Below, piece after piece: positions 20,864 to 35,715 of a DNA stretch of 64,000 nt. The translations under genes and the position numbers were made by a program. How positions within the stretch are numbered: position 1 is the stretch's first letter; each line of letters begins with the position of its first letter. Under the pieces are notes generated by a model, which was not told where the DNA came from, ran no database searches, and was given only the letters and a program-made list of their open reading frames with translations. The DNA is from Phaeobacter gallaeciensis (GTDB lineage: Bacteria; Pseudomonadota; Alphaproteobacteria; Rhodobacterales; Rhodobacteraceae): assembly GCF_001678945.1 (NCBI RefSeq), contig NZ_CP015124.1, forward strand, positions 310,001 to 374,000. Reading direction: 5' to 3'.

Positions 20864-20895
20864 GGTGAGGCATCCTTTTCTCACATCAGACTACG

Positions 20896-20923
20896 TATCT
20901 AACGCAAGTTTGGCCAAACGCAA
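20896..20923 (-). promoter_or_regulatory. Putative cysE promoter with a palindrome in its spacer
   Basis: On the minus strand TTGCGT (20918-20923) and TAGATA (20896-20901) are 16 nt apart. A perfect 12-base palindrome, GTTTGGCCAAAC at 20908-20919, occupies much of the spacer, a position suited to repression or activation by twist. Confidence 0.5.
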
Positions 20924-20992
20924 ATTTGTGAAGAGAAGTATTTTCATTATGAATGGATCGCGGGGCAGACGTCCCATGCGTGGCGCACAGGC

Positions 20993-21277
20993 TTACCCTA
21001 TTCGCCCATGCACGGCGCGCAGGACCCGGATCGTGCAAGCAAGGTATTCGGCATCATCGAGCGGTGGCTCATCCGCCAGCGGAAACAGCCGTGCTGCCGC
21101 GCTGAGCGTGCCATCGCCCCACCTGGGGTGCAGCCCCATGCCCTGCTCCATATGGGCACAAGCCCGCGCGGCACCCGCAAACAGGCAGGCACAAAGGCGG
21201 GCGCGCTTTGCCTCGGGGACATGCAACAGCGCGCGGGCGGCGGAGGAGATATCACCCGGCAAGACGGGCCGCCTCAT
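20993..21277 (-). CDS. Small conserved protein downstream of GTA gp15 (DUF7742-like)
   Basis: A 94-residue protein that starts in a four-base ATGA overlap with the end of gp15, so it is translated with the GTA operon. It is helical and Ala/Arg/Cys-rich (ARALLHVPEAKRARLCACLFAGAARAC), with a conserved-looking GMGLHPRWGDGTLSAAARLFPLADEP core. I believe the same small gene follows gp15 in other Rhodobacterales, but no function is known to me. It ends 129 nt before the cysE start. Confidence 0.75.
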   Translation of the reverse strand: MRRPVLPGDISSAARALLHVPEAKRARLCACLFAGAARACAHMEQGMGLHPRWGDGTLSAAARLFPLADEPPLDDAEYLACTIRVLRAVHGRIG

Positions 21278-24200
21278 GTCAGCACCGCCCGGGCAGCAGG
21301 CCCGGCGCCGAACCGGTCTGAAACCTGCGCCACCTCAATCCGGTCCCCCGGCAATGCCCCATCCGCCACCTGCATCACCGCCGAGTAACTCCAGCCCGGC
21401 GCTGATAGTGTCACTTCCCGCAGAACCACGGGCCCGCGCAGGACACGCAGCAGATATTCCTCACGCGCCTCGCCCAGCGGTACCTCCTGCAGATCCCAGC
21501 TGTCACCCTCGATCCGGGTGCGGCGGATCCAGCTGACCTGTATCGCCCCGCCCAGCGCGCCCTCTAGGCGCAGATGCACCGGCGCATAGGGGCGCAGGCC
21601 GTTGCCATCAAAGGCCTCGATCCGGTGCACATAGCTTGGGTCGTCATAACCCCGCCGCGCCGGACCGATCCGGTAGTGACGCGCCCTGCGCCGCTGCGCC
21701 AGCGGCAGATCGAGCTGGCGCAGGGTATCATCCAGCAGCACCACGAATGAACCTTCAGGCCAGATATCAGGCATCAGCCCGTCGCTGCCCAGCTGGCCGC
21801 GCAAACGCCCGCGCAGCAGATAGGTCTCGGGGGCCAACAGTTCGGCACTGCGGAACTGGAAAATCTCCCAATTGCCATTGCTGCCATCGCCGATTGCAGC
21901 CGCATTGGCCCCGTTCAGCACCGCCAGCATATCTCGGCTTTGCAACTGTCCAAAGATCAGCTTGACCTGCAGATCGGCCCCCAAATCCCAGCGCCCGACC
22001 GGCCCGCGCAGCAAGGGTGACTGGGTGATCCCGATGACGGATCGGGCTGCGATCACCTCTTCCAGTTCCAGCGTGTAGCCTTCGTCGGCCTGCGCGCCGT
22101 AGACCGCGACACTGCCGGGCCAGGGCTGGGCGGTAATGGCCAGGTGCGGCGCATGCGGGGTTTCCTCGCCCGTCAGCAAGGGTAGGTCCATGAAGAGCGG
22201 CAGCACAGGCACGGGCGCTGCGAATTCATTTACACCGGGCAGCTCCTCGGCGCTGGGGGATGGGAGATAGACGCCGGGATCGATCCGCACCGCCTCGACC
22301 AATTGCGCCTCGGCCATTTCGATACGATCCACCCGGTAAAGGGTGGGCGTCTCCTCGGCGCTCTCACTGCCCTGCCCCGAGGTCTCCTCCTCAGCACCGG
22401 GGTCAGCAATCGGCAGGGCGATCACATCCCCCACCGCAATATCCAGCCGCGAAGGCGGCAGCACAAAGCGCGCGCTGTCGCGGGCGATGCGGGCCTCGAT
22501 CAGCCAGCGTTCGGCGATCTGGCGGGCCTCTGCCCCAGTCAGAACCATCGGCAGGTCGTGTTGACCTGCCGCATGGGTCGCCTGATCGGGCAGGACGGCC
22601 TCTTGCGCGGCGAGATCGTAATTGGCGCCCCATTCCGCATAGCGCAACCGTACCCTGCCCGTCAGCTCGGCCTCGGCGGCGCGCTGATGGGCAATGTCTC
22701 CTTCCACCTCGGGGCTGTCGACCAATTGCTGTGGCTCCAGCGGGCGAGCACCGGTGCCCTTGCGCGGCAGGAAGCGCAGCAGCCCGTCCTGTTCGATCAC
22801 ATCAAACCCGTGCCGCAGCATCAGCGGCTGCAGCGCGGCGCGGGCAGTCTCTGTTCCTTCAAGGCTATAGCCATGCACGATCCCGTAAAGCGAGCTGACA
22901 TCGGTCTCGCTCACGCCGGAGCGGGTGCAGATCTCAGTCACCGCCGAGGACAGCGTGCGCTGACCAATGCGGCCATTCAGCCAGTGCCCCCGCAGGTAGT
23001 TCTCCCCGTCGCTCCAGACCTCGCTCGCGGCTGGAAAGGCCGGAAAGGGCCGCGCGTCCCAGGCCCAGACATAGGCGTTGTCCATATCCAGCATCGGCGC
23101 GTCATATTCCGGCGAAATGGGGTTGTTGGCCGGATCACTCCAATAGCCAAGCATCGCACGCAGGTATTGCAGCTGGATCAGATCATCGCGCTGGCCATTG
23201 GAATACTTCGGCAATCTCGATTCCGAGCTTTTGGGATCCAGGAACTTGTTTGGCTGATTGGTACCCCTGTCGATGGCGGCGCAGCCGAGTTCCGTGAACC
23301 AGATCGGTTTGCTCTGCGGCTCCCATGCCGTGGGCAGCGGCTGACGCACGCCGCCGATCCGTTCGTGATGGGTGTTGCCCCACCAGTTGCGCAGATCCTT
23401 GTAGCGCCAGATCCAGGGTTCCTGATGGGCGCCATCCGTGATTGGGGTGCGGATCTGGGCGGCTTCGGCCTCGGGCGAGTGGTAATACCAATCGTAACCT
23501 TCGCCCCCCTCGATATTGCCACGTAGGTAATCCAGATCATAAATCGCAGGCACTCCGGCTTCGGCGTCCAGATGGTCCGTGCCCTGCCGCCAATCGGACA
23601 GCGGCATGTAATTGTCGATCCCAATGAAATCCACCTCCGCATCGGCCCAGAGAGGATCCAGGTGGAAATAGCGGTCGCCTTCCGGGCTTTGGTAGCCCCA
23701 GTATTCCGACCAATCCGCCGCATAGCCGATCTTGACCTCTGGCCCCAGGATCTGGCGTACCTCGGCGGCCAACGCCCGCAGGGCCGTCACAGCCGGAAAT
23801 CCGCTGACGCCCCGGATCTGGGTCAGCCCCCGCATTTCCGAACTGATGCAAAAAGCCGCCACCCCGCCCGCTGCGGCGCAAAGCGCGGCATTGTGCAGAA
23901 TGAAGCGTCTCAGCCCCCAGTCCTCAGGTCCACTATAGGTGACCGTGCCATCGCCAATGGTGAAATCACCGGCCGAGGCCTGCCCCATGAAGGCGGCGAC
24001 TTCTGCATCCGCAGCGGCGCTTTGATCCGGGCTACCTGCGCGCCCCGGCGCCACCGACAGTGTGATGCGGCCCCGCCAGGGCAGATGCGGCTGGTCCGGG
24101 TTATCGCTCCATGGATCCGGCAGACCATTGCCCTCGGCCTGATCCATCAGGATGAAGGGATAGAACATCACCCGCTGCCCGGCAGCGTTCAGCGCCTTGA

Positions 24201-25248
24201 TCGCCTCCACCACCGCCGCATCGGCCGGGGTGCCGCCATAAAGGGGATTGTCGTCTTCGTCCTTCGGCACCTCCTCGGCGCTGCTACGATCCTGTCCTGA
24301 GACTTGCCAGGGCATTCCGACGCCCTCGGCCAATTTCTGCTCCACCTTGGGTTTGATCCGGCACTCCCCGCAGCGCAGGTCATCGCCAAACCAGGACACG
24401 ATCAGCGAGGTCGCCTTGCAGGTTGGCAACTCCTCCTCCAGCGCCGCAAGCGAGGTCAGAAGGTCTGTCTGCCCAGATGGCGAGTGAGTATTGGCGGCGC
24501 GCATATCACCGGGCCCACCGGAGTAGTTCACCGCGCGGCTGGCCAGCGCGTATTCGCCTGTCCCCGGCATCAGCGCCACGCCCCGCACCAACTGCGCTGG
24601 ATCAAGGTCGAACTCGGCACCGCCAGGCTGCGCGCCACGTATCACCTCAAACGAGAACTGCGGCACCCGGTTGCCAAAGCCATCCAGCGCGATGTCTTCC
24701 AGCACCACATAGGCGGTGCCGCGATAGGCAGGCACCTTGCCTGCGCCCTCGATGGCCTCCATCACTGGATCGGGCGCTTGATCCGGGGTGCCGCGATAGA
24801 CCGTCATGTTGAGATCCAGCGGCGAGACTTCCTCCCCATCGGCCCAGACCCGCGGCACCGAGGCGATCTCCCCTTCACACAGGGCAATCGCCAGCGAGAC
24901 CGAATAGCTGTAGCGCGTGACGCTGGGCTGCCTTGGCCCGCCCTTGCCGCCACCCGTGGTGGTGGTACTTTCCTGAAAATCAGAGGCCCAGATCACCTGA
25001 CCGCCAATGCGGGTGCGGCCCAGAACCTGCGCGATGGGTTGGCCTTCGCTGGCCTGCGTCAGGCGGAACTGGCTGACCTTGCCGGTTTCCACCGGGTCCG
25101 ACCCGGCGCCGAGCAACCGTTCGTCAATGGCCCGCCCCAGCGTCGCGCCCACCGCCCGGCCAATCGCCACCGAGGACAGCCCCGCCACCGTGCCCCCCAC
25201 GGCCCCGCCAATTGCGGCGCCCGCCGCAGAAAGAAGAATGGTCGCCAT
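21274..25248 (-). CDS. GTA gp15: baseplate multidomain (megatron-type) protein with glycoside hydrolase TIM-barrel-like domain
   Basis: A 1324-residue protein and the largest in the GTA. The N-terminus is hydrophobic and Gly/Ala-rich (about 1-40). A TIM-barrel glycoside-hydrolase-like region lies at about 400-760 (AFCISSEMRGLTQIRG, VDFIGIDNYMPLSDW, IWFTELGCAAIDRG), followed by phage tail hub-like and fibronectin-like parts. In RcGTA this protein forms the baseplate and contacts the cell surface. ATG at 25246-25248 overlaps the gp14 stop in TGATG. Its own stop overlaps the next small gene in ATGA. Confidence 0.95.
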   Translation of the reverse strand: MATILLSAAGAAIGGAVGGTVAGLSSVAIGRAVGATLGRAIDERLLGAGSDPVETGKVSQFRLTQASEGQPIAQVLGRTRIGGQVIWASDFQESTTTTGGGKGGPRQPSVTRYSYSVSLAIALCEGEIASVPRVWADGEEVSPLDLNMTVYRGTPDQAPDPVMEAIEGAGKVPAYRGTAYVVLEDIALDGFGNRVPQFSFEVIRGAQPGGAEFDLDPAQLVRGVALMPGTGEYALASRAVNYSGGPGDMRAANTHSPSGQTDLLTSLAALEEELPTCKATSLIVSWFGDDLRCGECRIKPKVEQKLAEGVGMPWQVSGQDRSSAEEVPKDEDDNPLYGGTPADAAVVEAIKALNAAGQRVMFYPFILMDQAEGNGLPDPWSDNPDQPHLPWRGRITLSVAPGRAGSPDQSAAADAEVAAFMGQASAGDFTIGDGTVTYSGPEDWGLRRFILHNAALCAAAGGVAAFCISSEMRGLTQIRGVSGFPAVTALRALAAEVRQILGPEVKIGYAADWSEYWGYQSPEGDRYFHLDPLWADAEVDFIGIDNYMPLSDWRQGTDHLDAEAGVPAIYDLDYLRGNIEGGEGYDWYYHSPEAEAAQIRTPITDGAHQEPWIWRYKDLRNWWGNTHHERIGGVRQPLPTAWEPQSKPIWFTELGCAAIDRGTNQPNKFLDPKSSESRLPKYSNGQRDDLIQLQYLRAMLGYWSDPANNPISPEYDAPMLDMDNAYVWAWDARPFPAFPAASEVWSDGENYLRGHWLNGRIGQRTLSSAVTEICTRSGVSETDVSSLYGIVHGYSLEGTETARAALQPLMLRHGFDVIEQDGLLRFLPRKGTGARPLEPQQLVDSPEVEGDIAHQRAAEAELTGRVRLRYAEWGANYDLAAQEAVLPDQATHAAGQHDLPMVLTGAEARQIAERWLIEARIARDSARFVLPPSRLDIAVGDVIALPIADPGAEEETSGQGSESAEETPTLYRVDRIEMAEAQLVEAVRIDPGVYLPSPSAEELPGVNEFAAPVPVLPLFMDLPLLTGEETPHAPHLAITAQPWPGSVAVYGAQADEGYTLELEEVIAARSVIGITQSPLLRGPVGRWDLGADLQVKLIFGQLQSRDMLAVLNGANAAAIGDGSNGNWEIFQFRSAELLAPETYLLRGRLRGQLGSDGLMPDIWPEGSFVVLLDDTLRQLDLPLAQRRRARHYRIGPARRGYDDPSYVHRIEAFDGNGLRPYAPVHLRLEGALGGAIQVSWIRRTRIEGDSWDLQEVPLGEAREEYLLRVLRGPVVLREVTLSAPGWSYSAVMQVADGALPGDRIEVAQVSDRFGAGPAARAVLT

Positions 25249-25721
25249 CAACTCACCTCATCGGGAAATGCAAAACGCGCCACAATACGGCGCTGCCAGG
25301 GGCCGGTCAGCGCGCTCTCAACGACGCCGCGCGCGCTATAGGCATGAATGAAACGGGGCTGCCCCTGTAGCACCTCTGGCGCGCCCGTTGCGGATTGAAT
25401 GCCAAGGTGTTTGGCCACGGCCCCGGCGCGCATGCGAAACAACAAGACATCGCCGACCTCGCAGGCGGAGAGCGGTTTTGCCCGCAGATAACGCTGGGCC
25501 GCCTGCCATAGGCGTTCCTCGGCCTGCGGTTCGGACCAGTCCATCGTATAGGGCGGCAGCGGCGCCGGTTCCTGCGCGCAGTGTGCCCGCCAGATCCCCC
25601 GGATCAGCCCCAGGCAATCGCAGCCCGCACCCCGGCAACTGGCCTGATGCACATAGGGCGTACCGATCCAGTCCCGGGCGGTCTTGGCAATATCCGCGCC
25701 TGTCACCCTTCCGCCCGTCAT
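25248..25721 (-). CDS. GTA gp14: NlpC/P60-family cell-wall peptidase
   Basis: A 157-residue NlpC/P60 cysteine peptidase. The catalytic cysteine lies in RGAGCDCLGLIRG (about residue 33), and the downstream His is in VAKHLGIQSA (about 120). In RcGTA the protein sits at the tail tip and helps DNA entry by cutting peptidoglycan. It overlaps gp13 by four bases (ATGA) upstream and gp15 by one base downstream. Confidence 0.95.
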   Translation of the reverse strand: MTGGRVTGADIAKTARDWIGTPYVHQASCRGAGCDCLGLIRGIWRAHCAQEPAPLPPYTMDWSEPQAEERLWQAAQRYLRAKPLSACEVGDVLLFRMRAGAVAKHLGIQSATGAPEVLQGQPRFIHAYSARGVVESALTGPWQRRIVARFAFPDEVS

Positions 25722-26605
25722 CGGCGGCTGCCGCCGGTATTGGCGCCAGTCGAGCGCGGCACCGACATCACCCAGTCCTCTCCGGGGATATCTGGAAAGC
25801 CCTGAAAGTTGATGAGGTTGTTGAATTTGAGGCGGCAGGTCTCCATCCGCTTGTCACAGCCCGCATCGAGCTGCAGCAGGTCGCCGGGCGCCACCGGCGC
25901 GCGCAACGGCTCCCACAGTTCGATCAGGCGGCCCGTGGCATCGCTGCGGTCCTGTTTGATCGCGCTCCACAGCCCCTCAGCCGCGCCCGTCAGCACCGTC
26001 AGGCGCCCACGGGTAAACCAATCGGGTTCAAAGCCTGCCAGATCACCCCAATAGAACAGACGGCCGTCCTCGCTGCGCTCGACCGCGCGGGTCTCGCTAT
26101 AGCCGGGCAAGTTCAGATCGAAGCGGCAGGTGTCATCGCCCAGAACCGCAGTACAGGGTTTCTGGTAGACCCGGCCCAGCGGCTGGCTCAGTGCCTCGCT
26201 CAACCCGCGCAGCTCGGCCTCAAAGGCACTGCCCGCGCGGCGCAGCTCTCCGATCGATCCGCGAAACTGCAGCCAGCGCAGCGACAGGTCCTGCCAGTTC
26301 ACCAGCCAGCAGCGCACATCCGCCGCATCAAACCGTCCCGCCTCGATATCCTCGGCCCGCAGCGTGGTATCGGACAGCGCCCCCAGCGCCTCGGTATTGT
26401 CCACCGACAGGCCCGTCGCCTGTTGCAGCGCTCGTGCGGTCAGCCCGCTGCCCGCCTTGAACGTCATCCCGTCAAATGCCAGATCGCGGTCGTGGTCGGT
26501 AAAGCCAAAGAAGGCGCCATCCCGGCAGGTTAGTCCCCAGGCCCGGCACAGTGTTGTCACCCCAGTGGCGAGGTGCTTCAGAAAAGGTTGCGACGGCCCG
26601 GCCAT
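25718..26605 (-). CDS. GTA gp13: tail hub protein (DUF2163 family)
   Basis: A 295-residue protein with DUF2163 in the N-terminal half and the phage BR0599-type C-terminal domain (CDKRMETCRLKFNNLINFQGFPDIPGEDW). Cysteines occur in TLCRAWGLTC, KPCTAVLGDDTC and GCDKRMETC. The equivalent RcGTA hub protein was reported to hold an iron-sulphur cluster; the last group, with the upstream CTAV and DTC cysteines, is a plausible ligand set here. The start overlaps the gp12 stop by one base (TGATG). Confidence 0.94.
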   Translation of the reverse strand: MAGPSQPFLKHLATGVTTLCRAWGLTCRDGAFFGFTDHDRDLAFDGMTFKAGSGLTARALQQATGLSVDNTEALGALSDTTLRAEDIEAGRFDAADVRCWLVNWQDLSLRWLQFRGSIGELRRAGSAFEAELRGLSEALSQPLGRVYQKPCTAVLGDDTCRFDLNLPGYSETRAVERSEDGRLFYWGDLAGFEPDWFTRGRLTVLTGAAEGLWSAIKQDRSDATGRLIELWEPLRAPVAPGDLLQLDAGCDKRMETCRLKFNNLINFQGFPDIPGEDWVMSVPRSTGANTGGSRR

Positions 26606-27237
26606 CAGATCCGCACCTCCACAATCGGGACATCCGGCACATCGCCCGCCTGAAAGGAGGCGACGCTGGTCAGGATCTGATCGGTGTCAAACCGCACCGG
26701 CACATCGAATTCAAAGCCCGCGACGACCTCCAGCCCGGCCTCGGGCGGATAGGCCAGCGTGATTTCACCCGTCGCGGTGTCGAGTTCGTAATCGACGCTC
26801 TCGCGCAATTCCTCCTGCTTCAGGCCCACGCGCACCGTTCCCGCCACCGGTTTGGCAATCGGGCGATGGTAGAGCGAGGTGCCGGAGCGATAGGACTTCA
26901 CCAGTTGGAAGCGCGTAGTCTGCCCATCGCCGGTGCCGATCACCTCGTCCCGGAAATCGACCTCTGCGCTGGCGCGGGCCGATTTGTAATCCGACCAGTC
27001 CTTCCAGCGAAAGCCGTACATCTGCCCCTGACGGGCCTCGAAAAAGGCAATCAGAACCTCGATATCCTCAAGCGAGCGCAGACCAAGCCCGGCATCATAG
27101 CGGCGCCGCGAATGCGCCCAGGGGGTGTTGCGCTCCTCATGGCCATTGGCGAGCGAGACGATATCAGTGCGCCGCTGCGGACCGCCGACCGAGCCGAAGC
27201 TGAGCGAGGCGGGAAATCGGACATCGTGGAAATTCAT
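26605..27237 (-). CDS. GTA gp12: distal tail protein (DUF2460)
   Basis: A 210-residue DUF2460 protein, the RcGTA distal tail component that joins the tube to the hub. The typical blocks are FHDVRFPASLSFGSVGGPQR at the start, WAHSRRRYDAGLGLRSLED, and FFEARQGQMYGFRWKDWSDY in the middle. It follows gp11 after a 52-nt gap, the second-largest kind of gap in the cluster, and overlaps gp13 by one base. Confidence 0.95.
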   Translation of the reverse strand: MNFHDVRFPASLSFGSVGGPQRRTDIVSLANGHEERNTPWAHSRRRYDAGLGLRSLEDIEVLIAFFEARQGQMYGFRWKDWSDYKSARASAEVDFRDEVIGTGDGQTTRFQLVKSYRSGTSLYHRPIAKPVAGTVRVGLKQEELRESVDYELDTATGEITLAYPPEAGLEVVAGFEFDVPVRFDTDQILTSVASFQAGDVPDVPIVEVRI

Positions 27238-27289
27238 CGGAATACCCCCTTTTGGGATCTGTCGTTGGGTAGATCAGGCGGCGCGCAGA

Positions 27290-27946
27290 TCAGCGATTGC
27301 GGTTGCCACGCGACAGGGCGCGGGACAGGCGCGCGGCGATCTGCCCTTCGCTGCGGCGGAACCCGGCCACATCCGGGGTGGTAATGTTCATCACCACCTG
27401 CGTTGCACCGCTGCCGGAACTGGTGACGCCAAGCGATCCGTCGGCGGTGCGGCGCAGTGGCAGGATCGCCTCTGGCCCCGCTTCGCCCATCAGCCCGGTA
27501 CCGCCGCGCATGGGAAACATCGTGGCGCCGCTAACCACGCCGCCCCGGGCAAAGGGCATTACCCGCCCCTGCGAAAAGGCTGCGCCATCGGCAAAGGGCA
27601 GGATGTCGCTGACCAGATTGCCAACACCGCTGGCCAGCAGCCCGCCCACGTGATCGGTGACCGGGCGGATAGCGGCGTTATAGCTGGTTCGGATCATCGA
27701 GCGCGCAACGGTATCCAGCGCGTCCGACAAACTCTTTCCATCAAACACCACCCCTTCAAAGGCGCGGCGCAACCCGCGTGACATGCCGCGTTCAAGGCTT
27801 TGCACATCCTTGCCCGTCGCGGCAAAGGCCTGGCGCACCCGGCGCAATTCCGTGTCGAAACTGGCCGCCATGCCGGCGGCATCCCCCAGCGCATCCCCCA
27901 ATGCCTCGCTGCGCAGTTCCAGTTCGGCGATTTCACTCTCCGCCAT
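27290..27946 (-). CDS. GTA gp11: short tail tape measure protein
   Basis: A 218-residue tape measure protein, about the same length as the RcGTA protein and much shorter than in siphoviruses, which predicts a tail of about 50 nm. It has an N-terminal helical region (ELELRSEALGDALGDAAG), a Gly/Ala-rich middle with a hydrophobic segment (LLASGVGNLVSDIL), and the conserved FARGGVVSGATMFPMRGG block, then GEAGPEAILPL. It overlaps the small gp10.1-like gene by 14 nt. Confidence 0.93.
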   Translation of the reverse strand: MAESEIAELELRSEALGDALGDAAGMAASFDTELRRVRQAFAATGKDVQSLERGMSRGLRRAFEGVVFDGKSLSDALDTVARSMIRTSYNAAIRPVTDHVGGLLASGVGNLVSDILPFADGAAFSQGRVMPFARGGVVSGATMFPMRGGTGLMGEAGPEAILPLRRTADGSLGVTSSGSGATQVVMNITTPDVAGFRRSEGQIAARLSRALSRGNRNR

Positions 27947-28148
27947 GGTCAGGGTCCTTTGCTTTCGGAGTGTCTGGAAAGGCGGCCATCAGATCCTCAA
28001 GCCCTGCACGGTCCAGCGCCCCGCCAGCGCCCACGGGGGCCAGCATCAACCGCAACTCGGCCGGGGTCAGGCGCCAGAAGGTATCGGGGCTGAGGCGCAG
28101 ACCAACCAGGCCGACACGCATCAACGCGGGCCAGTCAAAGCTGCTCAT
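27933..28148 (-). CDS. GTA small tail-assembly protein (rcc01693 family)
   Basis: A 71-residue acidic helical protein (MSSFDWPALMRVGLVGLRLSP...TFWRLTPAEL) between gp10 and the tape measure gene. Small proteins in this place act as tail assembly chaperones, in the same way as the second product of lambda G/T. It starts in a four-base overlap with gp10. There is no sign of a programmed frameshift between the two; both have their own start. Confidence 0.88.
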   Translation of the reverse strand: MSSFDWPALMRVGLVGLRLSPDTFWRLTPAELRLMLAPVGAGGALDRAGLEDLMAAFPDTPKAKDPDHGGE

Positions 28149-28468
28149 GCATCTGGCCTGGGAAGAGAGAAACTGCGCGCCAGCAGCTGCGCCGCCACCC
28201 GCGCTGCGCCCAGAGGTCCCGCCGCGATATCCGCCTGGGCCAGTTCCTCGGCGCTTAAGGAATGGCCGCCGCCCTCAAGACCCGCCGCCAGCAGGGCAAG
28301 GATATCGCGGGCGGAAAACCGCCCCGCCTCGAACCGTTGCACCAGATCAACGAGACTTCCCTCTGCAAGGCTTTGCTCCAGCCCGGCCAGGGCGCCAAGG
28401 GTCAGCTTCAACGCGTAAGGCTTTCCATCGATGGTGATTTCCACCTCGCCACTGTAGGGATTTGCCAT
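28145..28468 (-). CDS. GTA gp10: tail assembly chaperone (GTA-family TAC)
   Basis: A 107-residue protein of the GTA-specific tail assembly chaperone family (Phage_TAC_11 type). The start MANPYSGEVEITIDGKPYALKLTLGA and LAGLEQSL are family-typical. The C-terminal part is helical and Ala-rich. It is 3 nt downstream of gp9 and overlaps the next small gene by four bases. Confidence 0.92.
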   Translation of the reverse strand: MANPYSGEVEITIDGKPYALKLTLGALAGLEQSLAEGSLVDLVQRFEAGRFSARDILALLAAGLEGGGHSLSAEELAQADIAAGPLGAARVAAQLLARSFSLPRPDA

Positions 28469-28471
28469 GGA

Positions 28472-28885
28472 TCACACCGCAGTAAAGCTGAGCATCCCGG
28501 CGCTGGCCAGCGCCAGCTCGTAGGTGGCCTCGCCATTGTGGGTGCCCGCATAATCCAGCGAGGTCACCTGAAACGGGCCTTCGATGATACCGAAATCGGG
28601 GATCACCACCTGAAAATCCGGGGTGATCCCGTCAAAGAACAGCTGCCGTGCCCGCTCATCCGTTCCCGCATCGCGAAACACCCCAGAACCCGAGATATTG
28701 GCCGAGCGCACCCCGGCGCCAGAAAGAAGCTCCCGCCAGCCGCCCTGGCTTTCAAGGCTGGTCACATCGACGCTTTCGGCGTTGAAACTGATCCGGGTGG
28801 CGCGCAGCCCCGCGATGGAATCGAATTGCCCATCGCCGGTCATATCCACCTTGATCAATAGATCCTTGCCATTCTGTGCACCCAT
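28472..28885 (-). CDS. GTA gp9: major tail tube protein
   Basis: A 137-residue TP901-1-family major tail protein. It has the typical start (MGAQNGKDLLIKVDMTGDG), the SFNAESVDVTSLESQGGWRELL segment and a beta-rich end (YELALASAGMLSFTAV). It forms the stacked hexamer rings of the tail tube. There is a 47-nt gap to gp8. Confidence 0.94.
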   Translation of the reverse strand: MGAQNGKDLLIKVDMTGDGQFDSIAGLRATRISFNAESVDVTSLESQGGWRELLSGAGVRSANISGSGVFRDAGTDERARQLFFDGITPDFQVVIPDFGIIEGPFQVTSLDYAGTHNGEATYELALASAGMLSFTAV

Positions 28886-28932
28886 TAGGTCACTCCACTA
28901 TTGTCTGAATTAAAGAACCGGCAGAGCAGCGT

Positions 28933-29340
28933 TCAGCTGTCTTCGACCCGGGCGGAAAACCGCAATACGATGCTACGCCCGCCGCCACTGAGCCGCTGTG
29001 CCGCGGCACGGTCGAACCAGAGGCCCACCAGCCGCCCCCGGCTCAGCAGCAGCGGCGCATCGCTCAATGCATCACAAACCGCCGCCGCCACGGATTTTGC
29101 ATGGGCAAATCCGGCGGTGTCAGAAAACACACTAACCGTGAACCGATGCCGCGCCCCGGCCCCTGTAGCATCCGAGCGATCCTCGACCTCCTCTGGCCCC
29201 AGAGCCACGTAGGTCTGTGGCAGGGTACCCGACGGCAGTGCGTCGAACAGATCACTGCCGATGAGCGCACTCAGAGCCGGATCCGCCAAGAGGTGCTGAT
29301 AGACCGCGGCCTGCAGCGCGGCGGAAATAGCATAGCTCAT
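28933..29340 (-). CDS. GTA gp8: tail terminator (DUF3168)
   Basis: A 135-residue DUF3168 protein (MSYAISAALQAAVYQHLLADP, DLFDALPSGTLPQTYVALGPEEVED). In RcGTA this is the tail terminator that caps the tube and joins the head. It starts in an ATGA overlap with gp7. Confidence 0.94.
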   Translation of the reverse strand: MSYAISAALQAAVYQHLLADPALSALIGSDLFDALPSGTLPQTYVALGPEEVEDRSDATGAGARHRFTVSVFSDTAGFAHAKSVAAAVCDALSDAPLLLSRGRLVGLWFDRAAAQRLSGGGRSIVLRFSARVEDS

Positions 29341-29687
29341 GCGCCCAGCTCCTCGACCACGAAACAGGTCAGATAGCGCGCGCCGGGGTCCGCTTCGCTC
29401 ACCGCGTCTATGCGAAACCGGCGGGTACCTTCGCGAAGCCGCTGATCAGGACGCGGCCGCGCCGTCTCCCCCACGGGGGCGGCCCGCACAGTGATGCGAT
29501 AGCGTTGCAGCGACAGGCTGCCGCCCTGCTGGTCTGCGTTACGCCCGCTGAGCGCCGTGACCTCGGCCCAGAGGGTGCCAAGCGCGCTCCAGCTTTCGAC
29601 ATATCCACCGGCGCCATCGGGCAGACGCCGCGGGTCCTCCAGCACCAACTGCCGGGACAGATGCGGACGGCGCGACGCCGCGGTCAT
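29337..29687 (-). CDS. GTA gp7: head-tail adaptor (stopper)
   Basis: A 116-residue head-tail joining protein. It has LEDPRRLPDGAGGYVESWSAL near the start and the Arg-rich YRITVRAAPVGETARPRPDQRL core. The ATG at 29685-29687 overlaps the gp6 stop by four bases. An upstream in-frame start would add 55 residues out of gp6 in the wrong frame and is rejected. Confidence 0.93.
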   Translation of the reverse strand: MTAASRRPHLSRQLVLEDPRRLPDGAGGYVESWSALGTLWAEVTALSGRNADQQGGSLSLQRYRITVRAAPVGETARPRPDQRLREGTRRFRIDAVSEADPGARYLTCFVVEELGA

Positions 29688-30283
29688 TGCACCGCACCCA
29701 CGGACAGGCGTATGGCGCGATAGCGTTCGATCAGGCTGGTGACGCCAAATGGCATGCAACCGCCGTGCAGGCCAGTATCCTCGCGGTATTCGTAGTAATG
29801 CGCCGCCAGCATCAGCACCGCCTGCGCCAGATCGGCAGGCAAGCTGCCCCAATCCGGCGCCAGCCCAGCCGCGAAACTGACCCGCACCGAACCGCCCTTG
29901 GCCACGATGGGCAGGAACCCGCGCTGCGAGCAGAGTTTGGGATGATGGGTGTCGCGCTCCAGCCGGTAGAGGGCTGGGTCCACGATCACTTCGCCGCCCT
30001 CAGCATCCCGCATCACGATCTCGGTCACCGAGGTCACCGGCGCGACCGGCAGAACCTCTGCCTCTGCGTTGCGCCAGCGCGTCTGCTCCCAGGTGAAACT
30101 GCGTGTTATCAGTATCTTTCCGCACCGCGCTTCGATGGCAGAGAGAGCCGCACGCAAGAACCCGTTCAGAACACCATCCTGAAGGCTGTCTTCGGGAAAC
30201 CCGGTGCCCAGTCGCAGGTGCGCCTTAAAGGCCTCCAGCGGCAAGGCGCTGTCCGGCAGCGGCGCCACATCGGTCAATATCAT
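29684..30283 (-). CDS. GTA gp6: head-tail connector (adaptor) protein
   Basis: A 199-residue phage head-tail connector of the gp6 type. Typical blocks are PLEAFKAHLRLGTGFPEDSLQD, the aromatic YRLERDTHHPKL, and LAQAVLMLAAHYYEYRED. The ATG at 30281-30283 is chosen because GGAGA lies 6 nt upstream. The gene is separated from the capsid gene by 170 nt, the longest gap in the GTA, which contains a strong hairpin. Confidence 0.93.
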   Translation of the reverse strand: MILTDVAPLPDSALPLEAFKAHLRLGTGFPEDSLQDGVLNGFLRAALSAIEARCGKILITRSFTWEQTRWRNAEAEVLPVAPVTSVTEIVMRDAEGGEVIVDPALYRLERDTHHPKLCSQRGFLPIVAKGGSVRVSFAAGLAPDWGSLPADLAQAVLMLAAHYYEYREDTGLHGGCMPFGVTSLIERYRAIRLSVGAVQ

Positions 30284-30412
30284 CACATTTCTCCGCACTT
30301 CCCGGCGTCCTCATGGCTTTGTCTCATCGGCTGCAGCGGGCGCACGTCCTCCCTGCCGCTCGGACGGAGGGGGAGCAGCTGGACGACAGGGAGTATCTGA
30401 CATGCGCCCGCC

Positions 30413-30438
30413 GACGGGTCCGGGCTGCCGGTCCCGTC
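30413..30438 (-). other. Intercistronic hairpin downstream of the GTA capsid gene
   Basis: GACGGGTCCGG and CCGGTCCCGTC form an 11-bp stem with one mismatch and the loop GCTG, starting 15 nt after the capsid stop. No T-run follows. It lies within the 170-nt gap before gp6 and is placed to stabilise capsid mRNA or to partly terminate transcription. Confidence 0.55.
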
Positions 30439-30453
30439 ATCGGTCCCGGGCGG

Positions 30454-31635
30454 TTAGCTCAGGCCGAATTTCATCAGTTTGATGGCCGCAAAATCGCTGA
30501 CATCACCGCCGATGCGTTTGGTGGCGTAAAACAGCACATGCGGTTTGGCGCTGAAGGGATCGCGCAGCACCCTGAGGTCGGGCCGTTCGGCAATTGTGTA
30601 GCCGGCCGCAAAATCGCCAAAGGCCACCGCGTAGCTGTCTGAGGCCACATCGGGCATGTCCTCGGCCACCAGCACCGGATAGCCCATTAGCCGCGCCGGT
30701 TCGCCCGCAGCCAGACCGTCGGACCACAGAAAGCGGCCGTCAGCGTCCTTCAGCTTGCGGATCACCCCGGCGGTCTTGGAATTCATCACAAAACTCGCAT
30801 TGGCCCGGTAGCGCGCCCCCAGCGCATAGACCAGATCGACAATCGCATCGCCCGTGCCGATGCCCCCATCGGTGCCCGTCGCCACATAACCAAGGCTGCC
30901 CCAGCTCCAGCTGCTATTGTCGACCGCCGGGTGGGCCAGAATCCCGGTGGGTTTGTCGATCCCGTCACCGCTCAGAAAGGCCGCCGCCTCGGAGCGGGCG
31001 AATTTGTCGGCGATACGTCCGGCCAGCCAGCCTTCGATGTCAAAGGCGCTGTCGTCCAGCAGCCGTTGCGAGGCCTTAGGCAAGGCGCTGAGTTCATGCA
31101 GCGGGATGGTGATCCGGTCAATGGAGGGCGTGCTGGTTTCGACCGTGGGATCGGTTTCTCTGGCCCAGCCTGCCTCCACATCCGTATGATCGATCAGCAC
31201 ATCGAACGAGGTCGCTTCGACATTCACGACCGAGGCCACGGCCCGGATCGAGGCTGTCGATTGCAGCACCGATTTCACCGTGTCCGCCGTTTGCGGATCC
31301 GCCAGGTAGCCGCCATCGCTGTTGACCACGGTGGACAGGGATTTACCGTCGAGATCCAGCCCGCGCAACGCGCTCTCATCCCCTGATCGCAGATAGCTGC
31401 CAAAGGCCTTATTATGCGGGGCGCCAATGTCTTCGCCTGCCGCCAGTTGCGGTCGGTTCACCACCAGAGATTTTCGATCCAGCATTGTCATTCGCGCGTC
31501 CACCTGTTTCAGTTTTTCCTGCACTTCACCCCGGAACCCCCTGAAGTCTTTGACAAAGCCGGAAACCGCCTGCCGGACTTCCTGCGCCAGAGGCGCCGTA
31601 TCTCCGGTGTCAGCCGGACTGTTGTGATTGCTCAT
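30454..31635 (-). CDS. GTA gp5: HK97-fold major capsid protein
   Basis: A 393-residue HK97-type major capsid protein. The N-terminal 100 residues form a charged coiled-coil scaffolding delta domain (AVSGFVKDFRGFRGEVQEKLKQ), removed during maturation in RcGTA. The mature part starts around AGEDIGAPHNKAFGSYLRSGD and includes LSTVVNSDGGYLADPQTAD and FGDFAAGYTIAERPDLRVLRD. The ATG at 31633-31635 overlaps the end of the protease gene by 26 nt. Confidence 0.96.
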   Translation of the reverse strand: MSNHNSPADTGDTAPLAQEVRQAVSGFVKDFRGFRGEVQEKLKQVDARMTMLDRKSLVVNRPQLAAGEDIGAPHNKAFGSYLRSGDESALRGLDLDGKSLSTVVNSDGGYLADPQTADTVKSVLQSTASIRAVASVVNVEATSFDVLIDHTDVEAGWARETDPTVETSTPSIDRITIPLHELSALPKASQRLLDDSAFDIEGWLAGRIADKFARSEAAAFLSGDGIDKPTGILAHPAVDNSSWSWGSLGYVATGTDGGIGTGDAIVDLVYALGARYRANASFVMNSKTAGVIRKLKDADGRFLWSDGLAAGEPARLMGYPVLVAEDMPDVASDSYAVAFGDFAAGYTIAERPDLRVLRDPFSAKPHVLFYATKRIGGDVSDFAAIKLMKFGLS

Positions 31636-32224
31636 CTGCCTGTCCTGTGTTGTGAAGGTTTTGCGCGCCCGGGATCCCCTCGGCATCCGCGCAGGCATCG
31701 CGCAGCTCAGCCGCGAGGGTCCGCAGAGCCTCATCTGCGCCACGCCGCGATTTTGCCGACACCCGGGCCGTCGCCAGCATCGGGAAGGTCACCAGCGAAA
31801 CCTCCCAGAGATCCAACTCGGTCAGTTGCCGTCCGCCGCCGGCCCGCCGGGTCGCCTTGACCGTGCGATAGCCAATCGACAGCCCGTCAATGGCCCCGGC
31901 CGTGATCAGGGACACCGCTTCGGCGCCGCGGCGGGTATCGGTCAGGACCCGGCCGCTGACCCAAAGGCCACGCGCATCTTCGCGTACCTCGTCCCAGACC
32001 CCAATGGGCTGCGCAGGATCGTGCTGCCACAGCATCTTGACCTTGCAGTCCCGCGAAGCCAGTGCCTGCAACGAGGCACCATAGGCCCCGGGCATCACCA
32101 CATCGCCGCCCTGATCGACCTCGCCAAACAGGCTGGCGTAGCCCCGCACGACATTGTCCGCCGCAAGGGCAATCCCGCCGCCGCCTTTGGCAAACTTATG
32201 CTCCAATTCCATTTCAGGTGGCAT
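31610..32224 (-). CDS. GTA gp4: HK97-family prohead protease
   Basis: A 204-residue HK97-type serine protease that trims the capsid N-terminus. Motifs are VVRGYASLFGEVDQGGDVV, the catalytic His in KMLWQHDPAQPIGVW and the catalytic Ser in GAIDGLSIGYRT. The start at ATG 32222-32224 has GGGAG upstream; there are further in-frame codons upstream without family similarity. Its 3-prime end overlaps the capsid start by 26 nt. Confidence 0.95.
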   Translation of the reverse strand: MPPEMELEHKFAKGGGGIALAADNVVRGYASLFGEVDQGGDVVMPGAYGASLQALASRDCKVKMLWQHDPAQPIGVWDEVREDARGLWVSGRVLTDTRRGAEAVSLITAGAIDGLSIGYRTVKATRRAGGGRQLTELDLWEVSLVTFPMLATARVSAKSRRGADEALRTLAAELRDACADAEGIPGAQNLHNTGQADEQSQQSG

Positions 32225-32256
32225 GCAATACTCCCGATAACACTCTGAATTTGTGA

Positions 32257-32475
32257 TCAAAGACCGACCAGAAAGGATTGAAACGCCTGCGCCAGGATCA
32301 CCGCGGCGACGCCGTAAACAGTCAGCCACAGGCGTTTTTCCAACCGTTCCATCATCTGCTCCATCCGCTCCAGCCTGCGGTTCATCGCCTGGTTCTGAAT
32401 CTCGGTGACGCGTTCATGTGCAGACAGCCGCAATCCCGGAGAACAATCAAACGGAGGCAAGGGTATCTCAGACAT
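32257..32475 (-). CDS. GTA gp3.5: small head-formation protein (rcc01685 family)
   Basis: A 72-residue protein. The N-terminus is MSEIPLPPFDCSPGLRLSAHE, followed by a charged amphipathic helix (NRRLERMEQMMERLEKRL) and a C-terminal transmembrane-like segment (LTVYGVAAVILAQAF). Small proteins of this kind between portal and protease are conserved in Rhodobacterales GTAs and are required for heads. The ATG at 32473-32475 overlaps the portal stop by eight bases. Confidence 0.88.
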   Translation of the reverse strand: MSEIPLPPFDCSPGLRLSAHERVTEIQNQAMNRRLERMEQMMERLEKRLWLTVYGVAAVILAQAFQSFLVGL

Positions 32476-33661
32476 CCGTCTCTCCCTCTGCCAGCGGCGG
32501 CAGGCCCAGCAGGCGGCGTTTTTCATCCCGGCTCAGGAAATCGGCGCTGGAGATCCGGCGCCACTGCGCCTCGCGCTCGGCCGCAAGGGCCGTCACCTGA
32601 TCAAGGTCTGGTTTCAACTCCAGCGCCTCACCCGTAAATCCCGACAGCCAATCCGAAAGCGCCGTTGCCACACGGCCCGCCAGCGGCAGCACGGTCAGCC
32701 GGTAAAACGCGCGGTTTGCCTCTTGATAATTGGCGTAGGCAGCATCGCCGGGCAGGCCCAGCAGCATCGGCGGCACCCCGAATGCCAGGGCGATTTCCCG
32801 CGCAGCGGCTTCCTTGGTTTGCTGAAATTCCATGTCCGAGGGCGAAAACCCCATCGGTTTCCAGTCAAGGCCGCCTTCCAGAACCATCGGGCGGCCAGCA
32901 TTGCGTGCACCCTGAAAATTCGTTTCAATTTCATCGCTTAACCGGCGAAACTGATCCTCGGGCATCATGCCCTGCCCATCGCTGCCGGACCAGACCAGCG
33001 CCCCGGATGGACGGGCAGCATTATCCAGCAGCGCCTTGGACCAGCGCGAGGCAGCGTTGTGAACGTCCACAGCCGTCGCAGCCGCCTGCAAGGGTGCAAG
33101 CCCGTAGTGGTCGTCCTGCGGGTGGAAACTGCGGATGTGGCAGATCGGGCTGCGGGTGCCAGTGGCGGCAAACCGGTGCTTGCGCCCACCCACCGCATAA
33201 TCATAGGCCACCGGCCAGCCATCGCCCCCCGGCACGACGCTGATCCGGTCTGGGCGCAGCACGTGCAGTTCTGCCGGTAGTCCCTCCTCCCCGGCTACCG
33301 CCTCGACGTAGGCATTGCCAGACAACAGGGTATACCCGATCAGCGCCTCGATCAGGTCCGAGCGGGATTGCGCCGGATTTGGCCGTGCGAGCAGGGTCAG
33401 CAGCGGATGGTTGTCATAGCGTTGCGTCGCATCCTGCAGGATCAGCGGCAAAGAGGCAGCCGCCTCGGAGATCAATTTGACGGCGCGAAATCCCACTGGA
33501 TTGCCTGCAAAACCGCTGCGGGTCAGCGAGACGGCGTCGCGCGGACTCCAGCTGACACCGCCCAGCCCGTGCCAGTTCACCACGCGGGCCGCCGCGCTTG
33601 CTTTCTGCTGCACCGGGGGTTCGGCTGCCCGTGTCTTGCGCCGCAGGAGGTCAAAGACCAT
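32468..33661 (-). CDS. GTA gp3: portal protein
   Basis: A 397-residue HK97-type portal protein that forms the ring through which DNA enters and leaves. Family blocks are SLTRSGFAGNPVGFRAVKLI, LLARPNPAQSRSDLIEAL, LSGNAYVEAV, HIRSFHPQDDHYGLAPLQAA and MLLGLPGDAAYANYQEANRAF. The start at ATG 33659-33661 is the first that matches the family; the open frame upstream runs into gp2 and is not used. There are 121 nt between gp2 and gp3. Confidence 0.95.
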   Translation of the reverse strand: MVFDLLRRKTRAAEPPVQQKASAAARVVNWHGLGGVSWSPRDAVSLTRSGFAGNPVGFRAVKLISEAAASLPLILQDATQRYDNHPLLTLLARPNPAQSRSDLIEALIGYTLLSGNAYVEAVAGEEGLPAELHVLRPDRISVVPGGDGWPVAYDYAVGGRKHRFAATGTRSPICHIRSFHPQDDHYGLAPLQAAATAVDVHNAASRWSKALLDNAARPSGALVWSGSDGQGMMPEDQFRRLSDEIETNFQGARNAGRPMVLEGGLDWKPMGFSPSDMEFQQTKEAAAREIALAFGVPPMLLGLPGDAAYANYQEANRAFYRLTVLPLAGRVATALSDWLSGFTGEALELKPDLDQVTALAAEREAQWRRISSADFLSRDEKRRLLGLPPLAEGETDV

Positions 33662-33782
33662 GCTGCACTCCTCATGCTTGATCGGGCCAATCCGCCCTTT
33701 GCTGAGAAACAGTTGTGCCTGAGAGGAATGAAGATCCACGAAGTGCCGCGCCCGCCGGGGGCGCAACACCCCGGCCCCCGGA

Positions 33783-35174
33783 TCAGAGCAGACGCGCCCG
33801 TGGCAGGCGCAGAGAGGCGGCAGGACGGATCATCAATTCGTGCAGGGCCCAGACCAACGCATCCAGCCGATCCGGCGATCCCTGGCCCAGATATCCCCGT
33901 GCCGTCATCTGGCACATCTGATCTTCGAGCGCAGCGAGCCCCGGCAGATGCGCCACCCGTCCCTGTTCATAAAGCGCCGCGACCGGTTCCGCCCGCGCCG
34001 CCTTGCCGCGCGCTGCGTGCAGGGCGCGAAAGGGCACCATTGGATCCACCTGCCGCAATACGCTTTCGACCAGCGCGCCGCCCTGATTGACCTCGGCCAC
34101 CAGCCGGTCGGCGTCGAATTCGTCGCGCGCGCGGATCGCCGCCTGGGCCCAGGCCAGCGGTTGGGCGCCCTCCTGGGTGCGGTCGGCCAGCACGAAAGCC
34201 CGCCAATCCTGTGGCGGCCCGTCGGTGATGGCACCGGCCACCACGATACCGCAAGCGTCCGAGGATTTTCCGGCGCTGACCGCAGGGTCCACCGCCACCA
34301 CCACCCGGCTCAGCCGCGGGGCAGTCTCGACCCGGCCCCTCTCCAACTGTTCCGCCGACCAAAGCGCCCCCTCCACATCCGAGAGCAGCACCCCGTCCAG
34401 TTCCTGCCGCCCCAGCCGCGATCCGGCATAGCGCGTGCGGACCTCTGCCAGGAAGGAGGGCGCCAGATGCGCCCGGTTTGCCTCGGTCGCGGCGTGGCTT
34501 TGTACCGTGCTGTCCCGCGCCAGCAACTCCCGCAGCAGCCGCGTGTTGCGGGGCGTTGTGGTGACGCAGACCTGCGGGTGCGTGCCAAGCCGCAAGGCAA
34601 ATTGCAGCATATCCCAGCAATCCCTACCCTTTTTCCACTTGGCCAGTTCGTCCGCCCAGGCCGCATCGAACTGCGGGCCGCGCAGGGCCTCGGGATCATG
34701 GGCGGAAAAGGCCTGCGCCATCGCGCCATTGGCCCAGATCAACTTGCGCTCGCTCGGCTTCCACGTCGGACGGCGATCCGAGGGAGAGCAAGCCAGCAGC
34801 CCACTGTCGCCGTGGATCATCACATCACGCACCTGATCGTATGTCTCAGCAATCAGTGCAACGCGCCGGGCCTTTCCTACGGCCATGGGCGTCGCCCCCT
34901 CGACCTGCGCCCGCAGCCATTCTGCGCCGGCCCGCGTCTTGCCCGCCCCGCGCCCCCCAAGGATCACCCAGCAACGCCAATCACCCTCTGGCGGCAGCTG
35001 ATGGGGATGCGCCCAGACCTCAAACAGATAGGGCAACGCCCGCGTGGCCTGATCACTCAAGCTCTCCAGTAGGCGGTTCTGCAACTGCAGCGGCACGGAG
35101 GCAATCCAGGCGGCGGCAGATTTCAGCCCGGGCCTCTTCAAGGTCGAGTTCAGCATCCCCTGCGGCGGTGTCAT
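33783..35174 (-). CDS. GTA gp2: terminase large subunit (packaging ATPase/nuclease)
   Basis: About 463 residues. The ATPase Walker A motif is ILGGRGAGKTRAG, the acidic Walker B pair lies in AAWADELAKW, and coupling motif sequences follow (CVTTTPRNTRLL). The RNase H-like nuclease starts at VVVAVDPAVS, with further acids in DRLVAEVNQGGALVE and DRLDALVWAL. In GTAs this enzyme packages host DNA headful without sequence choice. The start is uncertain: ATG 35174 is listed, but ATG 35156 and GTG 35096 are possible and no good ribosome binding site is visible. All options overlap gp1, so translation is probably coupled. Confidence 0.93.
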   Translation of the reverse strand: MTPPQGMLNSTLKRPGLKSAAAWIASVPLQLQNRLLESLSDQATRALPYLFEVWAHPHQLPPEGDWRCWVILGGRGAGKTRAGAEWLRAQVEGATPMAVGKARRVALIAETYDQVRDVMIHGDSGLLACSPSDRRPTWKPSERKLIWANGAMAQAFSAHDPEALRGPQFDAAWADELAKWKKGRDCWDMLQFALRLGTHPQVCVTTTPRNTRLLRELLARDSTVQSHAATEANRAHLAPSFLAEVRTRYAGSRLGRQELDGVLLSDVEGALWSAEQLERGRVETAPRLSRVVVAVDPAVSAGKSSDACGIVVAGAITDGPPQDWRAFVLADRTQEGAQPLAWAQAAIRARDEFDADRLVAEVNQGGALVESVLRQVDPMVPFRALHAARGKAARAEPVAALYEQGRVAHLPGLAALEDQMCQMTARGYLGQGSPDRLDALVWALHELMIRPAASLRLPRARLL

Positions 35175-35400
35175 GGGTTCGCTCTGCAATCAACTTCTCC
35201 ACTTTCTGGCTGTCCCGGATCAGGCTTTCGAGCTTCGCCACCTGCTGCCGCTCTCCCTGTGTCAGCGCAACTGCACCGTTCTGCATCAGGGAGTCGTGCA
35301 AGCCCTCCGCCTCGTTGCGCAGCCGCAGCAGCGAGGCCTGCAAAGACCGCAACAGATCGCGGACAGGCCGATGGTCATCGGCGGGGTCTGGTGTTGTCAT
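35053..35400 (-). CDS. GTA gp1: small terminase
   Basis: A 115-residue helical, charged protein. The start is MTTPDPADDHRPVRDLLRSLQ, followed by a long heptad-rich helix (about 40-80, ERQQVAKLESLIRDSQKVEKLIAE) and an acidic helix with LDLEEARAEICRRLD. This position and composition match the RcGTA gp1 small terminase, which lacks a specific cos or pac-binding fold and so fits random packaging. It is the first gene of the GTA operon, 100 nt from a near-consensus promoter. The end overlaps gp2. Confidence 0.88.
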   Translation of the reverse strand: MTTPDPADDHRPVRDLLRSLQASLLRLRNEAEGLHDSLMQNGAVALTQGERQQVAKLESLIRDSQKVEKLIAERTHDTAAGDAELDLEEARAEICRRLDCLRAAAVAEPPTGELE

Positions 35401-35505
35401 GGGAATAATCGGGCCTCATACGGAAATGCTCCGGATGAGAGAAAGAAAGGACGGCCGCCGACATGCGCTGCGGGGCCGCCAAGTTTCCTTCCAACTGCAA
35501 CTCAA

Positions 35506-35534
35506 CTTATACGGGTTTCTGCCCATCATGTCAA
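35506..35534 (-). promoter_or_regulatory. Near-consensus sigma-70 promoter for the GTA operon
   Basis: On the minus strand TTGACA (35529-35534) is followed by exactly 17 nt and TATAAG (35506-35511). Transcription would start near 35499, about 100 nt before the gp1 ATG. No other plausible target lies in this direction. Confidence 0.6.
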
Positions 35535-35634
35535 GCGCTGCAGCAGGTTGGCAGAACGGCGGCGCCAATCCTTGTTAGGCTTTGCGGCCCGTCGGATGCA
35601 AAGCGACCGGGTGTCCCGCGGTCAGCACGCAAAG

Positions 35635-35659
35635 AAAAAGGGCGCCGAGGCGCCCTTTT
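35635..35659. terminator. Bidirectional terminator of mltG
   Basis: GGGCGCC and GGCGCCC form a perfect stem with a two-base centre, flanked by A5 on one side and T4 on the other. It ends mltG transcription (minus strand) and shields the GTA promoter. The rest of the 315-nt gap 35401-35715 holds that promoter and the gp1 leader. Confidence 0.85.
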
Positions 35660-35715
35660 GTATCACTGTGAATTTGTCGTCCGCCGCTGGGTGCCAGCGT
35701 CAGATAAAGGACACC

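Follow-up and report, generated by a model that had tools for sequence, protein, structure and literature searches.

A conserved structured RNA beside the capsid gene in an RcGTA-type gene transfer agent operon of Phaeobacter gallaeciensis

We analyzed a stretch of 64,000 nucleotides (nt) of Phaeobacter gallaeciensis (NCBI RefSeq assembly GCF_001678945.1, contig NZ_CP015124.1, positions 310,001 to 374,000 of the forward strand), referred to here as the window; the source genome (G000) is a single contig (C1) of 4.06 Mb. The minus strand of positions 20993-35400 carries a complete structural operon of the type of RcGTA, the gene transfer agent (GTA) of Rhodobacter capsulatus, with gp1-gp15 and g16 uninterrupted and in the RcGTA order according to open reading frames (ORFs), Pfam and NCBIfam. 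The gap that separates the capsid gene (gp5) from the connector gene (gp6) was found to contain a conserved structured RNA, which is the main subject of this study. The features of the operon are given below in the direction of transcription; gp6-gp13 are given the functional names customary for RcGTA.

35053-35400, minus strand: gp1, 115 amino acids (aa), fits the small terminase (TerS) by position and length; counterparts in congeners
33783-35189, minus strand: gp2, large terminase (Pfam PF03237, PF17289)
32468-33769, minus strand: gp3, portal (Pfam PF04860); likely start ATG near 33661
32257-32526, minus strand: gp3.5, rcc01685 family (NF048001); likely start ATG near 32475
31610-32329, minus strand: gp4, prohead protease (Pfam PF04586); ORF over-long at the 5' end
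30454-31743, minus strand: gp5, major capsid protein of HK97 type (PF05065, PDB 6tb9); likely start ATG near 31635
30321-30423, minus strand: core of the structured RNA of the gp5-gp6 gap, from covariation; outer and inner helix at 30338-30409, capped by a conserved loop
30355-30387, minus strand: innermost stem and near-invariant apical loop of the RNA, from the alignment; contains CCCUCC (anti-Shine-Dalgarno-like)
29684-30298, minus strand: gp6, head-tail connector (TIGR02215); likely start ATG near 30283, after CGGAG
29337-29852, minus strand: gp7, head completion protein/stopper (Pfam PF05521); ORF over-long at the 5' end
28933-29340, minus strand: gp8, tail terminator (Pfam PF11367)
28472-28885, minus strand: gp9, tail tube (Pfam PF06199)
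28145-28468, minus strand: gp10, GTA-gp10 family (Pfam PF11836)
27933-28148, minus strand: gp10.1, tail assembly chaperone (Pfam PF09550)
27290-27946, minus strand: gp11, short tape measure (NF058675)
26605-27237, minus strand: gp12, distal tail, DUF2460 (Pfam PF09343)
25718-26605, minus strand: gp13, baseplate hub (Pfam PF09931, PF09356)
25248-25721, minus strand: gp14, NlpC/P60 cell-wall peptidase (Pfam PF00877, TIGR02219)
21274-25251, minus strand: gp15, megatron baseplate protein (PF13547, PF13550, PF23666, NF048004)
20993-21277, minus strand: g16, rcc01699 type, DUF7742, last gene of the operon (Pfam PF24891)

The cluster is already known biology, being another member of the RcGTA type. 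Among NCBIfam models, GTA_megatron (NF048004) matched gp15 with 1887 bits against a cut-off of 800, RcGTA_tape (NF058675) matched gp11 with 355 bits (cut-off 220), and the rcc01685 family (NF048001) matched gp3.5 with 104 bits (cut-off 50); in Pfam, PF11836 matched gp10 with 99 bits (cut-off 28). The capsid protein aligned to the RcGTA capsid chain (PDB 6tb9) with 582 bits and is nearer to it than to any phage capsid, the best of which reached 282 bits and 40% identity; the best phage homologue of gp15 showed 42% identity. No family match was obtained for gp1 in Pfam, NCBIfam or PHROGs, and its counterparts in three congeners are 52-58% identical. The position and length of gp1 fit TerS, which in Ruegeria pomeroyi is reported to have 114 aa (PMC6854486). 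The end of gp15 is overlapped by the last gene, g16, which occupies the position of rcc01699 and is equated with it on that ground; rcc01699 is described as cotranscribed with the cluster in R. capsulatus (PMC9552610). A sequence-only reading had proposed a complete RcGTA-type cluster with gp1-gp15, and the ORFs in order, the general and GTA-specific models and the gene-by-gene comparison with RcGTA, in which content and order agree, bear this out, gp1 being placed by position and congeners only. Its view that no frameshift or truncation is present likewise holds for the window, where no cluster gene is interrupted. The interval that it assigned to the cluster also includes g16, which it did not list, and the conserved RNA was not mentioned. 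The tight overlaps it described are not present throughout, as gaps occur at gp5-gp6 (about 155 nt), gp8-gp9 (47 nt) and gp11-gp12 (52 nt), as measured by ORF ends. The first of these is the only large gap of the operon.

Sequences of the congeners are closely alike across the gp5-gp6 gap. Folding energies are -82.9 kcal/mol for the entire gap (z -2.7, equalled by 2 of 200 shuffles) and -52.5 kcal/mol for the RNA core (z -3.1, equalled by 1 of 200). For comparison we used 108 loci (L031-L138), 103 of which contain both gp5 and gp6; these yielded 96 distinct gaps of 90-220 nt, or 97 with the window. Alignment A3 has 92 rows, five weak-motif gaps (L111, L050, L055, L042, L048) having been left out, a choice of rows that favors the loop and the innermost pairs and not the outer helix. 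A second alignment, A2, holds 70 of the 97 gaps; it was thinned by hand, was not motif-selected and includes the five weak-motif gaps. RNAalifold predicted 19 pairs from the 92 loci of A3, and changes on both sides were found in 18 of the 19, compared with 14.6 in shuffles. Pairing held in 95.4% of cells, whereas shuffles gave 81.7% and slid versions no more than 59.7%; 288 cells carried both-side changes, against 77.7 in shuffles; and the covariation score was 0.614, against 0.329 in shuffles and at most 0.223 in slid versions. Conservation is 94% in the loop, 68-79% in the stems, 32% in the internal loop and 45-60% in the flanks. The loop carries CCCUCC, which is complementary to Shine-Dalgarno (SD) sequences. 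These results demonstrate a conserved fold in which the operon mRNA between gp5 and gp6 is predicted to form an outer and an inner helix, capped by a C-rich apical loop that contains CCCUCC and is nearly invariant.

Other readings of the conserved block were considered. G-U cells numbered 322 (240 without the innermost pair, mostly U-G), whereas A-C cells numbered 8 and other mismatches 72; this excess of G-U over A-C indicates that the sense RNA of the operon is under selection and rules out a DNA cruciform. A hidden small gene was rejected even though, in the window and the congeners alike, one frame crosses the conserved block without a stop, because the loop length varies by single bases among loci, so that a frame is not kept, and because the changes preserve base pairs. 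An intrinsic terminator was rejected for lack of a U-run: within 14 nt past the helix, at least five T occur in 1 of the 92 rows and at least four T in 11. An upstream hairpin of the gap, present in the fold of the window, has a mean z of -0.35 over the 92 loci, with 21 of them below -1 (mononucleotide shuffles), and is not claimed. A search of window positions 20000-38500 against Rfam gave no match at E <= 1. No earlier description of the RNA was found in Rfam or, among the matches listed, in the open-licence GTA literature. A survey of R. capsulatus small RNAs has reportedly been published, and the gap RNA may be listed in it.

The distribution of the RNA was examined with a model of it, R1, whose E-values are rough; the scan of the order was run at E <= 0.01 with strict filters. 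R1 matched 17 of 61 sampled relatives and 217 of 390 genomes of the order, always as a single copy per genome. A capsid relative was found in 36 of the 61 (including the source genome itself and one weak match), and gp5 at E <= 1e-60 in 344 of the 390. The 344 gp5-bearing genomes include all 217 that have the RNA, and the 46 genomes lacking gp5 include none of them (Fisher P 1.3e-18, a value that treats genomes as independent, which they are not). The RNA has gp5 immediately upstream and gp6 immediately downstream at all 45 genome loci that were inspected. The loop motif was also present in at least 120 contigs of a viral collection (L236-L355), 119 of which have the RNA between gp5 and gp6, while the 120th has gp6 and ends before gp5. 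Since gp5 and/or gp6 adjoin the RNA in all 120 listed, these contigs look like host GTA clusters that were called viral. Furthermore, a sense-strand R1 match at E <= 1 was obtained at 70 of the 80 loci whose capsids are closest to that of RcGTA, with 31 bits for the two lowest-scoring; a single antisense match, of 20 bits, is noise. One of the 70 loci (L384) encodes a capsid with 98% identity to the RcGTA chain and has the same RNA in the same place, with 52.3 bits; judging from the capsid sequence, this locus would be R. capsulatus or a very near relative. By capsid, the nearest named relatives of the window (best 80 of 510) are Phaeobacter, Leisingera and other genera, which we take to be roseobacters.

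The gene set of the operon is the same in the three congeners, and so is its site, where a fabF-like gene and yceG lie upstream and the place of cysE1 downstream, an arrangement described for the R. capsulatus cluster (PMC9552610). The flanking features of the window are as follows.

36871-38172, minus strand: fabF-like beta-ketoacyl synthase, upstream flank (Pfam PF00109, PF02801)
35716-36870, minus strand: yceG, upstream flank (Pfam PF02618)
20054-20884, minus strand: gene at the cysE1 place (serine acetyltransferase), downstream flank; name from R. capsulatus synteny

The gene at the cysE1 place is 93% identical in the three congeners, and no phage genes lie at the two borders of the cluster. 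An open frame of 1050 aa on the plus strand (35173-38325), antisense to gp1, yceG and fabF, is probably an artefact of high GC content. In a different relative (L034, genome G034), gp3-gp15 are complete, and gp1, gp2 and yceG were not found within the 20-kb stretch.

Ratios of nonsynonymous to synonymous substitution (dN/dS; NG86) against the three congeners ranged from 0.05 (gp9) to 0.44 (gp1) over the 17 gp genes and were 0.20-0.30 for g16; they are rough because dS is high (0.4-2.2). The control genes yceG, fabF and cysE gave 0.04-0.08, so that most GTA genes are less constrained than these. In-frame stops in congeners occur only in over-long N-termini (gp3, gp3.5, gp5) or near the C-terminus of gp4. 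The ORF of gp3 is over-long in that most relatives are homologous only from a point further downstream, and its extension is interrupted by a stop in one congener; the 5' extension of gp3.5 contains a stop in all three. In addition, 362 open frames of at least 150 codons, antisense frames included, were screened for frameshifts between the congener loci and 124 kb of the source genome. A match was obtained for 351 query-segment pairs, 176 of which were more than 85% covered by a single match, and six splits were flagged: three in tspA (once per congener), one in the upstream extension of gp6, and two in antisense frames, which likely have no meaning. Homology, synteny and dN/dS thus show that purifying selection maintains the cluster at a conserved site on the chromosome. 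The sequence-only reading had named premature stops in sister genomes and dN/dS near 1 as signs against it; no dN/dS near 1 was seen, and the stops of the congeners are confined to the places given above.

Genes of the GTA system outside the structural cluster were also sought, as the tail fibre, head spikes, lysis genes and regulator of RcGTA are reported to be encoded elsewhere (PMC8601537). The source genome contains gafA as a DUF6456 protein of 365 aa (G000:C1:92510-93607), and a GH108 endolysin followed by a GTA_holin_3TM protein (G000:C1:9740-10905). DUF6456 is presumed here to mark GafA. A tail fibre with DUF2793 (rcc00171 type) was not found in the source genome with the Pfam model or with a profile of ten fibres. 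Eight of the ten are encoded next to gp15 in the clusters of relatives, another comes from a probable prophage and the last from phage R4C. DUF2793 was present in 28 of 46 genomes searched. Transfer by RcGTA is reported to require fibres (PMC7296036). Their absence does not exclude a GTA, because 225 of 293 published GTA genomes have an rcc00171-type fibre (PMC10883770); it is a minority state and not unique. A weak match to the fibre profile at G000:C1:172250 (E 0.24; the three further genomes of the genus have similar matches) is not a fibre but a hexapeptide-repeat protein, which by eye we take to be gamma-carbonic-anhydrase-like, and a second (E 0.57) has an internal stop.

Several observations were made on DUF2793 proteins in relatives. 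One congener (G002) likewise lacks a detectable DUF2793 tail-fibre gene, and in ten related genomes (G004, G007, G010, G013, G014, G015, G018, G022, G026 and G027) the fibre gene adjoins gp15. Proteins of about 466 aa with DUF2793, the C-terminal part of which resembles a beta-helix by eye, occur in two congeners, on a 54.9-kb contig of G001 (L180) and on a 70.6-kb contig of G003 (L181); the latter gene sits among exopolysaccharide genes, and its contig may be a plasmid. G001 also encodes, outside its GTA cluster (L182, G001:C17:420001-440000), a DUF2793 protein of 235 aa beside gp12-gp15 homologues (33-46% identity); this region is probably a prophage whose baseplate is GTA-like.

The gene of the detachable tailspike, tspA, adjoins lysS and consists in the source genome of two overlapping ORFs of 389 and 388 aa (L211:5479-7763, G000:C1 about 611479-613763), whereas each of the three congeners has one reading frame of 761 codons; the split could reflect a genuine frameshift or a mistake in the assembly. 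TspA is reported to be dispensable for transfer, although its addition raises transfer (PMC13420450). For the RcGTA head-spike chains (GhsA/GhsB), two phage proteins used as PDB bridges gave no useful match, and no query sequence was identified for a genome search. The sequence-only reading had suggested a functional, selected particle: the dN/dS values and the same gene set in three congeners support selection, while function is putative, with two caveats: the tail fibre was not found and tspA is split.

The explanation that we consider best, at a probability of roughly 0.45, is a selected GTA operon with a conserved gap RNA that acts in cis after transcription. RcGTA is reported to require 145 copies of gp5 and 1-6 of the products of g12-g15, all from a single promoter (PMC9765227), and the RNA lies directly after the 145-copy gene and before genes needed far less. 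It may protect or isolate the capsid message by shielding the end of the capsid mRNA, and/or hold down the translation start of gp6 by occupying it. One transcript could then give about 145 capsid proteins per particle and few connector and tail proteins. An SD-like motif precedes gp6 in 86 of 91 loci, and CGGAG in 46 of the 91, at starts picked by a script, some of which look wrong; CGGAG is complementary to CUCC(G) of the RNA loop. Several points weigh against this explanation. Pairing between the loop and the SD sequence shows no covariation, because both motifs are near-invariant; the SD of any gene would pair with CUCC; and the helix of the window ends 54 nt before the gp6 start. The RNA is also not universal: 127 of the 344 gp5-bearing genomes of the order have no R1 match under strict filters, 9 of the 26 genomes in the family sample that carry a GTA lack it, with default filters too, and R1 matched none of nine other members of the class with a strong gp5 match, which speaks against a general role. 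The lack of matches in these genomes indicates that the RNA is not essential to RcGTA-type clusters in general.

The RNA might instead be cut from the operon mRNA and act in trans as a small RNA, like alpha-r14 and CcsR, on host or GTA messages through its anti-SD-like loop. This is unlikely, though a serious alternative: alpha-r14 is described as combining variable stems with an ultraconserved anti-SD loop (PMC10746234), CcsR RNAs as excised from a protein-coding transcript (PMC10253847), and the loop of the gap RNA is 94% conserved; but the gap RNA has no terminator of its own, is present once per genome and inside the operon at all 45 loci, and its motif differs from CCUCCUCCC. A transcription signal, whether an attenuator or the site of an anti-termination complex that lets only some polymerases reach the connector and tail genes, seems slightly less likely still. 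A protein-bound nascent RNA would be compatible with a conserved loop on a covarying stem, and the GTA cluster of Caulobacter is reported to be under an internal terminator and the anti-terminator GafZ; that terminator, however, is placed after the first gene and not after the capsid gene (PMC11150451), and without a U-tract the gap RNA is not an intrinsic terminator. Binding of the hairpin by the capsid or another GTA protein, for translation feedback or in assembly, is a quite improbable reading. It would suit an RNA that adjoins the capsid gene and has a near-invariant loop, and the determinant of the oblate head shape is described as open (PMC7296036). Tailed-phage capsids are, to our knowledge, not generally RNA binders, which counts against it.

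A further alternative concerns the cluster and not the RNA, namely that the cluster is a remnant without current function in this strain. The missing fibre gene, given that fibres are essential for RcGTA transfer, and the split of tspA point that way. We nevertheless consider it improbable, as every structural gene is intact and under purifying selection, the flanks are conserved, gafA, endolysin and holin are present, and transfer is reported to need no TspA. More broadly, we entertain as a doubtful but conceivable idea that RcGTA-type operons of Rhodobacterales encode an overlooked functional non-coding RNA by the capsid gene, perhaps a free small RNA that throttles host or GTA translation through its anti-SD loop in the few particle-making cells, or an RNA with a part in particle assembly.

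RcGTA is a model of domesticated viruses, and how one 14-kb transcript gives protein ratios from 145 to 1 is an open question, for which codon use has been proposed as one cause (PMC9765227). A conserved RNA right after the capsid gene, present also beside the RcGTA capsid, is a concrete lead that is testable in R. capsulatus, for which strains and RNA-seq data already exist. The RNA may also serve as a marker, since all 45 genome loci and at least 120 viral-collection loci adjoin gp5 and/or gp6.

Compared with known systems, the gap RNA resembles the alphaproteobacterial small RNAs alpha-r14, cuckoo and CcsR in its variable stems and ultraconserved anti-SD-like loop. In the descriptions of alpha-r14 and cuckoo, CCUCCUCCC lies in unpaired regions of three hairpins, whereas the gap RNA is one capped hairpin with the consensus CUCCCCUCCGUCC; unlike these small RNAs, it has no terminator, lies within a phage-type operon as a single copy and has no Rfam match. 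With terGTA and GafZ of the Caulobacter GTA it would share control within the GTA operon; terGTA, as described, consists of repeats after the first gene with terminator activity shown, in contrast to an RNA after the capsid gene without a U-tract. Phages with GTA-like baseplates (Rhodobacter phages, R4C, RDJL) share gp15 homologues, at best 42% identical, but differ in the capsid (at most 40% identity in the best-scoring phages), and R1 at E <= 1 had no match in R4C (8000-22000), RcapMu (14000-39000) or RcapNL. From RcGTA itself (rcc01682-rcc01699) the genome of the window differs in that no rcc00171-type fibre was found, tspA is split and the capsid has diverged (582 bits to 6tb9). The two clusters agree in content, order, yceG/cysE1 flanks and g16 as the last gene, and the same RNA occupies the same place next to a capsid that shares 98% identity with the RcGTA chain.

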